A stretch of 64,000 bases of DNA from a bacterium. GTDB taxonomy: Bacteria > UBP4 > UBA4092 > JAOAEQ01. Made by a program: the position numbers and the translations under genes. The notes beneath the pieces are model-generated. The model saw only the letters and a program-made list of their open reading frames with translations, had not been told where the DNA came from and made no database searches. The DNA lies in contig JAOAEQ010000018.1 in assembly GCA_026416715.1 (NCBI GenBank), positions 1 through 64,000 on the forward strand, written 5' to 3'. This document shows, in pieces, positions 29,075-57,843 of this stretch (within the stretch, counting starts at the first letter, position 1; each line of letters opens with the position of its first letter).

Positions 29075-30025
29075 TTATACACCTAAATAGCTCCCTTCCG
29101 TCAACCGATATCCCCGTGCAAATTGAGCGGCGCTCATGATTTTCCCATTTTCCGGTTGAACCCGAAGAATCTGCACCGCAGTATTATTTCCTGTTTGCAC
29201 GACAATTCCGCTCTCATCATGTTTGCCAACCAGAATAATTTTTCCTGCGGGCTCAGCTGGAGAACCAAGACCGACTTTGGCTAAATGAATCCGGAGCCGT
29301 TTTCCCTTTAGAAACGTAAACGCTCCTGGTGAAGGAGTTACGCCACGGATTAAATTAACAATCTCTCCTGCGGGTTTATTCCAATCAATACGCCCATCAG
29401 TATTAGTTAGTTTCGGAGCGTAAGTAGCTTCCTGATGATTTTGCGGAATACGTGGTGCAATTCCCATTTCAATTGCGTTTAACGTTTTCTGGAGAAGCGA
29501 TCCACCGAGTTGCGCTAGTTTAACCGATAAACTGCCAGCATTATCTTCCGGAAGTATCGGAATTTTCTCCTGAAAAATGATATCTCCCTCATCCATATTC
29601 TCATTCATAAACATAGTTGTAACTCCAGTTTCTGTTTCCCCACGAATGAGTGCCCATTGGATCGGAGCAGCACCACGATATTTCGGCAGAAGTGACCCAT
29701 GAACATTCACGCAACCATATTTCGGGATTTGTAATAGGGTAGGGGGAAGAATTTTCCCATAAGCAACAACTACAATAATCTCCGGATGTAATTCCATAAT
29801 ATGGTTGATAAATGTTTCGGATTTAATTGATTCTGGTGTTTCAACCGGTAATTGATGCTGTTGTGCAAACTGTTTTACCGGAGAAGGATGCAATTTTAAT
29901 CCACGACCATAAGGACGATCAGGTTGAGTTATAACCGAGATGACGTGCTGATTCGATTGGATAATTGCGGCAAGAGAAGGAACCGCAAATGCTGATGTAC
30001 CCAAGAAAATAATCCGCATAGACAT
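29075..30025 (-). CDS. fmt: Methionyl-tRNA formyltransferase
   Basis: 316 residues. It formylates Met-tRNAi using 10-formyl-THF. It starts with MRIIFLGTSAFAVPSLAAI (an ATG two codons upstream is also possible). The formyl-THF signature is VNVHGSLLPKYRGAAPIQWALIRGETETGVTTM, containing the catalytic Asn-His-Asp set (N-x-H-x-S...), with MDEGDII after it. The C-terminal domain (INLIRGVTPSPGAFTFLKGKRLRIHLA) binds tRNA. It lies 17 bp downstream of def, the usual def-fmt pair. Confidence 0.97.
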   Translation of the reverse strand: MSMRIIFLGTSAFAVPSLAAIIQSNQHVISVITQPDRPYGRGLKLHPSPVKQFAQQHQLPVETPESIKSETFINHIMELHPEIIVVVAYGKILPPTLLQIPKYGCVNVHGSLLPKYRGAAPIQWALIRGETETGVTTMFMNENMDEGDIIFQEKIPILPEDNAGSLSVKLAQLGGSLLQKTLNAIEMGIAPRIPQNHQEATYAPKLTNTDGRIDWNKPAGEIVNLIRGVTPSPGAFTFLKGKRLRIHLAKVGLGSPAEPAGKIILVGKHDESGIVVQTGNNTAVQILRVQPENGKIMSAAQFARGYRLTEGSYLGV

Positions 30026-31545: not shown

Positions 31546-31574
31546 TTGACATAATTGCATTTTTAACGTAATAT
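31546..31574 (+). promoter_or_regulatory. Sigma70-type promoter upstream of the xer gene
   Basis: TTGACA at 31546-31551 and TAATAT at 31569-31574 are 17 nt apart; an overlapping TATAAT at 31572 gives a 20-nt spacer. It lies upstream of the dif-like palindrome and the recombinase start at 31756. Confidence 0.55.
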
Positions 31575-31653: not shown

Positions 31654-31681
31654 ATTGCGTTAAAGATATATTTAACGCAAT
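31654..31681. promoter_or_regulatory. 28-bp dif-like 11-6-11 palindrome upstream of the xer gene
   Basis: ATTGCGTTAAA (31654-31664) and TTTAACGCAAT (31671-31681) are perfect inverted repeats around the 6-bp centre GATATA. Length and geometry equal those of a Xer/dif core site (two 11-bp arms, 6-bp centre). By hand alignment the left arm matches the E. coli XerC arm at 6 of 11 positions (TGCG and the final AA), the centre at 4 of 6, and the right arm at 5 of 11. It lies 74 bp before the recombinase start. A palindrome GTTGCGCAAC follows at 31691-31700. An operator or RNA hairpin is the alternative. Confidence 0.55.
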
Positions 31682-31755: not shown

Positions 31756-32643
31756 ATGAGTAAGAGTCTGTTGAATTGTATAGAAGAGTTTAAATCTCAT
31801 CTATCGGTAGAACGAAATCTTTCGCATAATACCGTTGCAGGTTATTCTCATGATTTAATGAAGTTCACCGCTTTCATGTTATCTAAATATGGAAAAGAAC
31901 CGCTCGTAACCGAAATTACCACGCAAGATATTCGGGATTTTCTTGCTTATTTACAACAGAAACGACGGGTGAAAAGTTATGCGATATTTCGTAAAATTTC
32001 GTGTTTACGAACATTTTTCGCCTTTCTACTCAACGAAAAACACATAAAGATGAATCCGATGGAAACGATTCAAAGCCCGAAGCTAGCGAAAAAACTACCG
32101 GTGTATTTGACGCAAGATGAATTAAAAAAGCTACTTTCTGCTCCAAATATAAACGACCCCATAGGCATTAGGGATTTAGCGATTTTAACCTTATTCAGCT
32201 ATACAGGAATGCGATTAAGTGAACTGGTTCATTTGAATCTGCAAGATGTGAATTTACAAGAGCGGTTTGTTCGCGTTATGGGTAAAGGGTCAAAAGAACG
32301 AATTATTCCTTTAGTTGCGCCTGTCATCAAGGTTTTAAGCGACTATCTGGATATTCGACCATTCGTTGACAATGACGCATTATTTTTGAGTAGCTTGAAA
32401 AAAAGAATATCACCGCGAATGGTTCAGTATTTAGTCAATAAATATCGGATTAAAGCTGGCATTTCGCAGGAAAAGTTTAGTCCGCATAAACTTCGGCATA
32501 CCTTTGCGACCATGCTGCATGGGAAAGATGTTGATTTGATTGATATTCAGGCACTTTTAGGTCATTCTTCTGTAGCTACCACCCAAATTTATACCCATAC
32601 GAACCCTAAAAAACTTCAAAAAGCAGTTGAAAAATTGATATAA
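31756..32643 (+). CDS. Xer-family tyrosine recombinase (XerC/XerD-like)
   Basis: 295 residues, normal for chromosomal Xer proteins. The N-terminal SAM-like core-binding domain is LLNCIEEFKSHLSVERNLSHNTVAGYSHDLMKF. The catalytic set is complete: R153 (YTGMRLSEL), K177 (MGKGSKER), H244 and R247 (HKLRHTFATML), H270 (LLGHSSVATTQIYTH) and nucleophile Y279. The C-terminus is short, as in XerD. It resolves chromosome dimers at dif in known bacteria. No second xer gene is in view. The 11-6-11 palindrome just upstream recalls single-recombinase systems such as XerS/difSL, where the site lies next to the gene. Confidence 0.93.
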   Translation: MSKSLLNCIEEFKSHLSVERNLSHNTVAGYSHDLMKFTAFMLSKYGKEPLVTEITTQDIRDFLAYLQQKRRVKSYAIFRKISCLRTFFAFLLNEKHIKMNPMETIQSPKLAKKLPVYLTQDELKKLLSAPNINDPIGIRDLAILTLFSYTGMRLSELVHLNLQDVNLQERFVRVMGKGSKERIIPLVAPVIKVLSDYLDIRPFVDNDALFLSSLKKRISPRMVQYLVNKYRIKAGISQEKFSPHKLRHTFATMLHGKDVDLIDIQALLGHSSVATTQIYTHTNPKKLQKAVEKLI

Positions 32644-32749: not shown

Positions 32750-32796
32750 GCGATCGATCCTACCCTAAAACAGGAAACATTTCATTTCATTTTATT

Positions 32797-34074
32797 TTAT
32801 TGAATGACAATTTGTGGGAAATACGGCTGGAGATATAATCGGTCAATTAATAATGTAATATAGGGACTTACGGTAAATAATCGGCTGAATTGGGCATGCA
32901 GAACAAGTTGTGTATCTAACTTAGCTGATGCAAATTGGACATCGGTCAATACAACCTGAGCGCGATTATCCGCAGCTGCGGCTGATTTAGCAATGAGTTT
33001 GCCGAGCGCATACACTGCGAGTAAGGTATGGTAGCCTCGGTAGACGCCGTGAATCGGGAGGAGTGTTTTCCGAAATATCATATGCGTATAGTAGCGGCGT
33101 AAATAGTCTGCCAGTTCAGGAGATTGGATATCGAATCGGATTGGAGTGACCAGTTCCCATCTGATTTTTTTCCCGTCGGTTATCAGCGGAGAAATGGTTC
33201 CCCTACCCTTACGATATTTGAAATAGTTTTTGTAAAGGTTGAATACCAAGGCGAACCGATTCTGTTTCTGAGCAACAAATTCTATCCAAGTAATAAACGG
33301 AGCTAAATAGGCGCGAGACGTTTTTTTCGCTTTTTTGATTTTCAGCGCGATATCAAAAATATGTCGGAATTTTTCGAGTTGTAATTTATTCAATCCGCTA
33401 AGAACAGTTTCATTTGGTTTTTTATTTTCTTTTTGGGCAATGAGTTCAACCTGTTTTAAACTCACGCAAACGTTGATTAATATACTTCCGGCAATCAGAG
33501 CGGTTTCTAAGGAATATGCGGTATCATTCAATATCTGGAGTAAACACGATTCGAGCTGTTTATATTCTTGCCAAGATATGGTCATTCCGGAATACAGCGT
33601 TATTGGTTCGTCAATTTTTTCAATCCGATAGTGGTTGGGATATATTGTTTCGAGTTCAGTGATATGCTGGTCGAGAGTTGTTCCGAGTTGTTTACTGACC
33701 GCAGTACATGCAAATGATACGCCGACAACGATTCCATCCGGTGTTTTTACAAAATGGTACGGAAACTCTTTACATACCTGCGCTTTGGTATCGAAGCCGA
33801 ATGAGACATGAATCTGGCATCGGTTATCAGGAAGTAAAAAGATACATGCCTGATTCTGAACTCGACTGAAGGTATACCGTTCTCCAGTGAGTAATGGTTT
33901 CGGTAGAAGTTGGAATAATTGGCGCGATGCGAGTTCCGGCTGTTTTTCAGTCCAATCTAACTCTATCAAACGTCTATACGAAGTATCATCAATGCCAATC
34001 AGCCAATTAGTTCGGCAGCATTGACCGCACTGGATGCATTGATATTTAACCGAGTTTGAGATAATATAGTTCAT
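32797..34074 (-). CDS. YkgJ-type cysteine-cluster protein
   Basis: 425 residues. The N-terminus has the cluster YQCIQCGQCCRTNW, with later cysteines in ACIFLLPDNRCQIH, QVCKEFPYHF and FACTAV. That is the CxxCxxCC-type Zn/Fe-binding motif of the YkgJ/FliB-like family. The remaining 280 residues are unrelated to known domains that I can recognise, and are basic and helical. FliB-type members methylate flagellin, but no flagellar genes are here and the methyltransferase role is unproven. Its ATG overlaps the TGA of the cyclo-ligase gene (ATGA), so they are translationally coupled. Confidence 0.72.
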   Translation of the reverse strand: MNYIISNSVKYQCIQCGQCCRTNWLIGIDDTSYRRLIELDWTEKQPELASRQLFQLLPKPLLTGERYTFSRVQNQACIFLLPDNRCQIHVSFGFDTKAQVCKEFPYHFVKTPDGIVVGVSFACTAVSKQLGTTLDQHITELETIYPNHYRIEKIDEPITLYSGMTISWQEYKQLESCLLQILNDTAYSLETALIAGSILINVCVSLKQVELIAQKENKKPNETVLSGLNKLQLEKFRHIFDIALKIKKAKKTSRAYLAPFITWIEFVAQKQNRFALVFNLYKNYFKYRKGRGTISPLITDGKKIRWELVTPIRFDIQSPELADYLRRYYTHMIFRKTLLPIHGVYRGYHTLLAVYALGKLIAKSAAAADNRAQVVLTDVQFASAKLDTQLVLHAQFSRLFTVSPYITLLIDRLYLQPYFPQIVIQ

Positions 34075-55230: not shown

Positions 55231-57843
55231 TTAATCGAAAATAAATCCTTTTTCAAAAACAGTTATGCACGCACGGACGACTTCCGGAGCATATAGGATT
55301 CCGCTATTTCGTTTAATTTCATCTAATGCGGTTTCAATTCCGAGTGCCGGACGATACGGTCGATGCGTAGTCATCGCTTCAACCACATCCGCAACCGCAA
55401 TGATTTTCGCTTCGAGAACAATCTGGTCGCTGGTGAGTTTGTTCGGATATCCAGAACCGTTAAGTCGTTCGTGATGTTGATATACCGCTTGCGCTACTGG
55501 CCAAGGAAATTCGATTTCTTTCAAAATATCATAAGCACCTTGTGGATGCGTTTTAATCAGTTCAAATTCGAGTGCGGTTAATTGCGTTGGTTTAGTTAGG
55601 ATTTCCGCCGGAATATAGATTTTTCCAATATCGTGAACGGTAGCAGCGATTCGAATTCCTTCAATAGTATCTGAGGGCAGATTCATTTCCGTAGCAATAG
55701 CACGCGCGAGATTCGCTACTCGCCGTTGATGTCCAGCGGTATATGGGTCGCGCAGCTCAGTCGCTGACGCTAACGCACGAATCGTTCCTGCCATTGCACG
55801 GCGGAGTTTCCCGAAACTCCGATCAAGTTCTTCTTTCGCTTGTTTTTCAGCAGTTATATCAATCCAATATCCGATAACTTCAACCGGATTACCTTGATTA
55901 TCTTTAATCACGCGCGCTTCATCCCGCAGCCAGCGGTAAGTTCCGTTTTCGTGCTGAAACCGATATTCAAGAACAATATGTCCTGTAGATAATAAGTTCG
56001 CTAATTCATGTCGTACCTGCGGATAATCTTCCGAATGAACCCGATTTCGCCAGAAATCGGGTTCGATAATGAACTCACCTGCAGCATACCCAAGTAAATC
56101 TATTACATTTTCACTCACGAACGTTACTTGGCGCTCTTCACCAACTGAATAGGAATAAATAACTACTGGCGCTTCCGAAACTAGATATTTCAATCGTTCT
56201 TGCGTTGATTTCGCTTTTTCTTCTGCAGTTTTTCGATCGGTAATATCGTTCAAGAAACCGATAATCTGACTCGGAGTTCCTGAATGATCTCGGATAATTC
56301 GTGCTTCATCATATACCCAGCGATAGCTTCCATTTTTATGCCGAAATCGGTATTCGCAACGGAATATCCCTTGGTCTAAAAATCGGTTATATTTCTGTTC
56401 GACCAAAGGATAATCATCCGGATGGATTCGCGATTTCCAAAATTCTCTTTCTCGATAATATTCTTGCGAAGTATATCCAAATATATCCAGCAAATTATCG
56501 CTGATAAAAGCATTACGGGCAATACCTTGTTCAAATTGTTCCGCATAAATAACCGCTGGACTCGAGGATAGGAAAAATTGCAACTGTTGTTCTGCGGTTC
56601 TTAATTTTTCTTCAGCGAGTTTGCGCTCGGTCATATCCACACCGAGAATAAAAAAACCTATAACTTCGCCGGTCTCGCCAAAATGCGGGATATAATCAAT
56701 GCTAATTTCACGCTTTCCGATTTTCAGCTCGATAGTAGAATCATAATGTGCCGGGATGCCGGATAATACCTGCTGGATATACGGTTCGATTCGTGAATAA
56801 ACCTCCGGTTTCCAGACTTCGCGCATCGATTTTCCGAGCATATCGTTTTTAGTCAATCCATACCAAGTTTCATAGGTTTTATTAACAAATTGATAGCGAA
56901 CGTTACGGTCTACATAAGCAATTATTCCGCTGATACCGTCGGTAATCATCTGAAGTTGGGTTGCAATTCGACTCACTTCTAAAGTTCGTTGGGCAACAAG
57001 TCGTTCTAATTGCGTTCGTTGCGTGAGCAGAAAATATAGGTAACTGAAGGAGAGCAATAAAAACACCAAACTTAATCCTCGCATTATCCAAACACGTTTA
57101 AATACCAGTGCATTCCAACCAGCACGTGGAATTCCTGCTAATTCCCAATATCCGCCCGGCAGTTCAATTTTGCTGATAACCGGGTTCTTGTCAAACACCA
57201 ACGGATTTCCGGCAAAAACTTTACCGGTATGACGACGGAAAGCATAATAATTTGGATGATTCGCTTCACCGAATTGCGCTTCTTCGAGTAAATTAGTTAT
57301 ATCGACTCCTATAGTCACGAAGCCCCAGAATCGTTCATTCCGGAAAATCGCTAATATACCAATAATCCCGAAACCGCCGTTCCAATCCTCAAACGGACCG
57401 CTGATAACTACTTTACGGGAACGTAGCGCACGGAGTGCATCTGCGCGGAGTTCCGATGGCGAATCAGAGAATAGGTTTTTTCCAAGCAGAAGCTCATTTC
57501 CAAACAGCGGGTAAACATAACGATTGATTCCGTTCGGCGCAACCGAAATCACACGGATACCCTTGAGATTTGCTGAGAGTTTTGCAAGATACTGGTTAAT
57601 ATTCTCGTTAAGATGTTGTTCTGATTGTTGCGATTCGATAAACGCTTTAAGCGAATAGAGTGTAGCGATTTTATTTTCCAGCGCGCGAGTTAACAGAAAA
57701 CTATGGTTAACCAGCTCGCTATAGACATACTCGCGTTCCAATGCGAGCAGATGCGCTCGATAGAATAGTGAAATTGCCCAGAGCGCTCCGCCGAGAATAA
57801 TCGCCAGAATAATTAATGCTGGTTTCGGTTTAATTCGGGTCAT
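55231..57843 (-). CDS. CHASE-PAS-PAS-PAS-HD-GYP c-di-GMP phosphodiesterase
   Basis: 870 residues. TM1 is at about 9-28. A periplasmic CHASE domain (about 45-240, LKGIRVISVAPNGINRYVYPLFGNELLLG and GPFEDWNGGFGI) is followed by TM2 near 256-276. Three PAS domains span about 295-670, two of them with WRxRVHxxD or WKSRIHPDD segments and RWVYDEARII. The output domain has DPYTAGHQRRVANLARAIA, the HD pair H737-D738 in ATVHDIGKIYIPAEIL, HHERLNGSGYP with the GYP motif at 798-800, and AVADVVEAMTTHRPYRPALG. It hydrolyses c-di-GMP in response to an external signal sensed by CHASE and PAS. Confidence 0.95.
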   Translation of the reverse strand: MTRIKPKPALIILAIILGGALWAISLFYRAHLLALEREYVYSELVNHSFLLTRALENKIATLYSLKAFIESQQSEQHLNENINQYLAKLSANLKGIRVISVAPNGINRYVYPLFGNELLLGKNLFSDSPSELRADALRALRSRKVVISGPFEDWNGGFGIIGILAIFRNERFWGFVTIGVDITNLLEEAQFGEANHPNYYAFRRHTGKVFAGNPLVFDKNPVISKIELPGGYWELAGIPRAGWNALVFKRVWIMRGLSLVFLLLSFSYLYFLLTQRTQLERLVAQRTLEVSRIATQLQMITDGISGIIAYVDRNVRYQFVNKTYETWYGLTKNDMLGKSMREVWKPEVYSRIEPYIQQVLSGIPAHYDSTIELKIGKREISIDYIPHFGETGEVIGFFILGVDMTERKLAEEKLRTAEQQLQFFLSSSPAVIYAEQFEQGIARNAFISDNLLDIFGYTSQEYYREREFWKSRIHPDDYPLVEQKYNRFLDQGIFRCEYRFRHKNGSYRWVYDEARIIRDHSGTPSQIIGFLNDITDRKTAEEKAKSTQERLKYLVSEAPVVIYSYSVGEERQVTFVSENVIDLLGYAAGEFIIEPDFWRNRVHSEDYPQVRHELANLLSTGHIVLEYRFQHENGTYRWLRDEARVIKDNQGNPVEVIGYWIDITAEKQAKEELDRSFGKLRRAMAGTIRALASATELRDPYTAGHQRRVANLARAIATEMNLPSDTIEGIRIAATVHDIGKIYIPAEILTKPTQLTALEFELIKTHPQGAYDILKEIEFPWPVAQAVYQHHERLNGSGYPNKLTSDQIVLEAKIIAVADVVEAMTTHRPYRPALGIETALDEIKRNSGILYAPEVVRACITVFEKGFIFD

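Follow-up and report, generated by a model that had tools for sequence, protein, structure and literature searches.

A probable dif site with two matching arms beside the only Xer recombinase gene of a bacterial genome

Described Xer/dif systems

Textbook accounts of Xer recombination split the labour between two enzymes, XerC and XerD, with the gamma domain of FtsK activating XerD. Several systems that manage with a single recombinase have nevertheless been described, namely XerS/difSL, XerH/difH, archaeal XerA/dif and XerL/dif (PMC5357621, PMC2731167, PMC2958812, PMC9765430), and dif sites outside the Legionellales are reported to show only partial dyad symmetry (PMC9765430). A literature search found no paper on an Xer/dif system in the Sumerlaeota, which are, by their Xer proteins, the closest well-sampled relatives of the bacterium considered here. 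We analyzed a window of 64,000 nucleotides from a 76-kb contig of this bacterium, whose genome (2.96 Mb in 64 contigs, 100% complete) we refer to as the window genome. On the evidence presented below, a 28-bp palindrome within this window very probably serves as the dif of the chromosome in an Xer system with one recombinase.

A perfect 11-6-11 palindrome lies upstream of the only xer gene

The 28-mer at positions 31654-31681 reads ATTGCGTTAAA-GATATA-TTTAACGCAAT, its arms pairing at 11 of 11 positions, and is separated from the ATG of xer by 74 bases. The sequence-only reading had described a perfect 11-6-11 palindrome 74 bp upstream of the only xer gene, and both parts of this description hold, as a search of the genome returned a single Xer match at E<=1e-3. 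The 28-mer is likewise single-copy, a search allowing up to 3 mismatches yielding no further copy in the 2.96 Mb. The acyltransferase, def and fmt genes, named from their protein sequences, are the divergent neighbours of xer. The features of the site and its immediate surroundings are as follows.

31546..31574, + strand: promoter-like TTGACA-17-TAATAT, by consensus match only, the number of such matches being not above chance; it would put the site in the 5' UTR of xer
31654..31664, + strand: left arm (11 bp) of the putative dif, ATTGCGTTAAA, the exact reverse complement of the right arm, with outer bases resembling published XerC arms
31665..31670, + strand: asymmetric 6-bp centre, GATATA; homologous centres approximate TTNNCA and are not self-complementary
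31671..31681, + strand: right 11-bp arm, TTTAACGCAAT, from the sequence and the arm pairing

A perfect 11-6-11 repeat of any sequence is expected by chance 0.02 times per 64 kb and 8e-5 times in the 257-bp intergenic stretch that holds the site. The reading of the palindrome as a chance inverted repeat, for which nothing speaks except the small size of the feature, is barely credible against the latter figure, and is refuted by the conservation described below, as the site recurs independently in comparable positions in related genomes. Elsewhere in the window there is a second perfect 11-6-11 repeat (56037-56064, GAACCCGATTT-CGCCAG-AAATCGGGTTC), which has a GC-rich stem and is dissimilar to dif. 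Seven perfect 11-6-11 repeats were found in 500 kb of XerC/XerD loci from other phyla, and the 28-mer is unlike them, since all seven have GC-rich stems and most resemble terminators.

The location of the site also lends itself to a different reading, in which the palindrome serves not recombination but the regulation of xer, as an operator or as an RNA hairpin in the 5' UTR. It is flanked by the promoter-like sequence upstream and the start of xer downstream, and a transcript could fold here into an 11-bp stem closed by a 6-base loop. On the other side, we found no intrinsic terminator at the palindrome, and an Rfam search of it returned only an unrelated sub-threshold match and no family. 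The evidence from related genomes that bears on this reading is given below.

The recombinase groups with XerC

The gene downstream of the palindrome encodes an intact Xer protein.

31756..32643, + strand: sole Xer tyrosine recombinase gene of the window genome, 295 aa, assigned to the XerC lineage with a PRM (XRX) recognition motif, from the open reading frame, profile matches, alignment and tree

Residues R153, K177, H244, R247, H270 and Y279, which we take to be the catalytic set of a tyrosine recombinase, are invariant in our Xer alignment, and the protein is intact at all of them. In comparisons with profile models it scores equally with the XerC and XerD models and falls under the cut-off for both, clears the cut-off of the archaeal XerA model (235.7 vs 220) and reaches 136.7 bits against a cut-off of 267 with the XerS model, while XerH aligns with it over the catalytic part only.

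For the DNA-recognition motif, Cortez et al. reported XRX for XerC, XKX for XerA and RQX for XerD (PMC2958812). When placed by alignment with E. coli XerD, this motif is PRM in the window genome, IRA in its sister genome from the same phylum, and XRX in every Sumerlaeota protein except one. In a quick tree of 111 Xer proteins (SH-aLRT support, midpoint root), a branch with support of 97 sets the RQX proteins apart. The group formed by the window genome and the Sumerlaeota lies across that branch with the XRX proteins, and its clade, which has support of 99, also takes in one long-branched sequence from a Halanaerobiaceae MAG. By tree and recognition motif, the recombinase is thus assigned to the XerC lineage. 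On both sides of the site, the outer part of the arm agrees with XerC arms from the literature, with ATTGCGT as in Idiomarina and ACTTCG as in Thiobacillus. Taken together, the motif, the tree and the XerC-like outer arms suggest a XerC-type enzyme whose partner XerD was lost and whose site turned XerC/XerC.

Comparison with described Xer/dif systems

The locus shares features with each of the described systems and differs from each of them. Like XerCD/dif of E. coli and most bacteria, it has a 28-bp site with 11-bp arms and a 6-bp centre, XerC-like outer arm bases and an FtsK with a gamma domain, and in the Sumerlaeota polar motifs converge on the homologous site. Unlike XerCD/dif, it has one recombinase in place of XerC and XerD (a single Xer each in the window and sister genomes), the arms are alike and both XerC-like, without the XerD arm TTATGTTAAAT / TTATGTTAA, and the site often adjoins xer. 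The archaeal XerA/dif systems also combine one recombinase with an 11-6-11 site of nearly identical arms, which is adjacent to xerA in Sulfolobales, whereas the protein described here is of XerC lineage, carries XRX (PRM) where XerA has XKX, and is accompanied by FtsK, which archaea do not have (PMC2958812).

XerL/dif of the Legionellales likewise pairs one recombinase with uninterrupted symmetric arms, but those arms are 10 and 12 bp long, and in L. pneumophila over 400 kb separate dif and xerL (PMC9765430). XerL is described as not recognisable by sequence as XerC, XerD, XerS or XerH (PMC9765430), a description that sets it apart from the recombinase of the window genome, an obvious XerC/XerD relative.

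A likeness to XerS/difSL of streptococci had been remarked on from the position of the site, and it extends no further than the single recombinase and the immediately adjacent site; difSL is 31 bp long with an 11-bp centre and unequal arms, and XerS has 356 aa (PMC5357621). Membership in this system was rejected on the 28-bp site with its 6-bp centre and on the score of the protein, which is of XerC type, with the XerS model. The XerH/difH system of Campylobacterota similarly has one recombinase, often linked to its site, but the difH arms TGAAAAC/TTTTCAA are missing from the palindrome (PMC2731167). These absent arms, together with a XerH match limited to the catalytic part, led us to reject membership here as well. 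As the locus differs from each known system with which it was compared, it looks like a new variety of single-recombinase Xer/dif, a "XerC-only" dif system with FtsK that is neither XerS/difSL nor XerH/difH.

Equivalent sites occur in related genomes

The sister genome has one Xer, 54% identical to that of the window genome, and an 11-6-11 site with 9 of 11 positions symmetric just upstream of xer, between xer and a divergent def-fmt pair. The two genomes of the class thus share the placement of the site beside xer and def-fmt, and the sister site has diverged in sequence, a search of that genome with the exact consensus giving no match within 3 mismatches. We searched 40 Sumerlaeota genomes, most of which gave one strong Xer match only, and collated a site of the same kind in at least 17, the majority with one Xer. 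The arm consensus in this phylum is ACTTC[G/C]TTAAA and that of the centre, which is not symmetric, is TTNNCA. Over 19 sites from both phyla, arm symmetry is retained at 198 of 209 positions despite 21 distinct arm sequences. To keep its direction, a tyrosine-recombinase site needs such symmetric arms around a centre that is not symmetric, as in loxP.

The position relative to xer is less constant. In several families the site is within about 400 bp of xer, whereas in Sumerlaeaceae it is 2-7 kb upstream with other genes between. In one complete genome taken to be of the Sumerlaeota (G013) a divergently transcribed flippase-like gene separates the two, and in four others (G046, G049-G051) they are on different contigs. 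Conservation next to xer thus stands for the sister genome and several Sumerlaeota families, and fails where the site is kilobases away or on another contig. These same distances indicate that the site is not an xer leader element, and with an intervening divergent gene and polar motifs converging on homologous sites (see below), they weaken the operator or hairpin reading to the point where we consider it improbable. Autoregulation by Xer bound at dif is possible as a side effect.

Another explanation is that the palindrome is the attachment site or remnant of an Xer-using mobile element, with the chromosomal dif elsewhere. Elements that exploit Xer and carry dif-like sites are known (PMC5357621), and a site of this class occurs on one viral contig. 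Yet the sites were found once per genome and not as a direct-repeat pair, both genomes of the class keep the site next to xer and def-fmt, and homologous sites show the polarity of a terminus, all of which makes this explanation very improbable. The viral site, a perfect TATTCGTTAAA-TTCCAA-TTTAACGAATA on a 34-kb contig (IMGVR_UViG_3300035511_000078; L304:9719-9746), possibly belongs to an element integrating at dif, or to flanking host DNA. The exact site of the window genome was found in none of the viral contigs searched.

An apparent second copy in one assembly (G078) was rejected as a strain variant of one locus. Its two versions (L168:384-407 and L250:5058-5081) represent the same dif locus, with similar flanks in the same orientation and identical arms, and with an inverted centre (TGCAAA vs TTTGCA), the outcome expected from a template switch or from recombination at a palindrome. 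Perfect 28-bp symmetric dif-like sites also occur outside both phyla (L241:1499-1526 in G130 and L248:1499-1526 in G090); the first of these genomes has one Xer, on another contig than its dif-like site.

Within the Sumerlaeota, three families (f52, f53 and f46; G057-G063, G065, G066, G047) have two Xer genes in most genomes, and our consensus search found no symmetric site in them. These families may keep a two-enzyme system.

Polar motifs and the position of the terminus

The sequence-only reading had suggested that the palindrome could mark the replication terminus. In G013, where octamers were scanned over 700-1100 kb, purine-rich GGGGAG words change strand near 895 kb. With the site at 897,116, counts of RGGGGAG on the plus and minus strands are 66:13 to its left and 13:63 to its right, and the interval of best switch (896,486-899,002, 2.5 kb) includes it. 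This two-replichore polarity persists beyond the scanned region (67:33 vs 25:76). Since the motif was chosen in G013, the other genomes provide the independent tests, and they show the same pattern: 23:3/0:17 in G056, where the switch interval includes the site, 28:3/3:21 in G071, where the switch is about 650 bp from the site, and 21:4/4:20 (p=2e-6) for 13 further Sumerlaeota pooled. The E. coli KOPS word GGGNAGGG showed no significant switch in G013. The window genome, the sister genome and all Sumerlaeota tested have an FtsK with its gamma domain. In the Sumerlaeota, the convergence of RGGGGAG on the site, together with FtsK, is the pattern characteristic of KOPS leading to dif.

The best change point of GC skew in G013 is at 899 kb, with the site at 897 kb, and a nearly as good one lies near 1,026 kb. 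The dnaA gene is about 160 kb from dif/xer in G013 (C1:1059521) and in G069 (C9:641230). We had considered this proximity as an argument against a terminus in G013, and dropped it because the skew minimum near 2.7 Mb, far from dnaA, indicates that dnaA does not mark the origin there.

Polarity around the palindrome itself points the same way with less force. RGGGGAG is scarce on the site contig (7 in 76 kb). GGGNAGG, the core of E. coli KOPS, follows the G-rich strand on other contigs of the window genome (42:22), and around the site it is distributed 6:1 on the left and 1:6 on the right (rank 9 of 957 similarly abundant gapped words), with p=0.015, a value that is optimistic because the word was picked after inspecting several KOPS-like words.

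5525, 13545, 14079, 19554 and 27055, + strand: other GGGNAGG words to the left, from the word search
29737..29744, + strand: closest polar KOPS-like GGGNAGGG word to the left of the site and directed toward it, from the word search (polarity 6:1 left)
32759..33209, - strand: the two closest KOPS-like GGGTAGG words to the right of the site, which start at 32759 and 33202 and are directed toward it (polarity 1:6 right)
41098, 43066 and 63805, - strand: other KOPS-like words to the right, from the word search

On the one long flank available in the sister genome, 5 of 6 RGGGGAG and 4 of 5 GGGNAGGG words point toward the site. A de novo search for polar motifs in 400 kb of other window-genome contigs established none; its top words, GAAGAAG and CGCTTC, were set aside as they resemble coding-strand bias and do not switch across the site in the direction that a terminus calls for.

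The GC-skew test for which the sequence-only reading had called does not support a terminus in the window. Skew is negative up to about 23-24 kb and positive beyond, the reverse of the change expected at a terminus, and gene orientation changes along with it, most genes to the left of the site and just to its right pointing away from it. We rejected window skew as a terminus test on account of this wrong sign and the confounding by gene orientation. The proposal of a terminus is hence borne out by motif polarity in the Sumerlaeota, and the GGGNAGG polarity is suggestive of one in the window genome. With local skew running the opposite way, we infer the terminus position there mainly from homology.

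A proposed one-enzyme dif system

A symmetric 11-6-11 site and a single recombinase are both present in the window genome, and a self-contained single-recombinase Xer/dif module, as first proposed from the sequence, is the best-supported reading. In the mechanism we propose, two subunits of the single XerC-type recombinase would bind the identical 11-bp arms, FtsK would activate the recombinase, and strand exchange across the asymmetric 6-bp centre would split the chromosome dimer. We lean towards the broader view that two neighbouring bacterial phyla resolve chromosome dimers by a XerC-lineage enzyme alone, at a dif with two XerC-type arms.

If so, FtsK would have to act without any XerD: the retained enzyme would be of XerC type and the site symmetric, while FtsK and the polar guiding motifs remain. 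This would offer a testable case of a two-enzyme, FtsK-gated reaction run by one enzyme, including the order of strand exchange on a symmetric site, and a predictor of dif would be gained for two phyla known almost solely from metagenomes.
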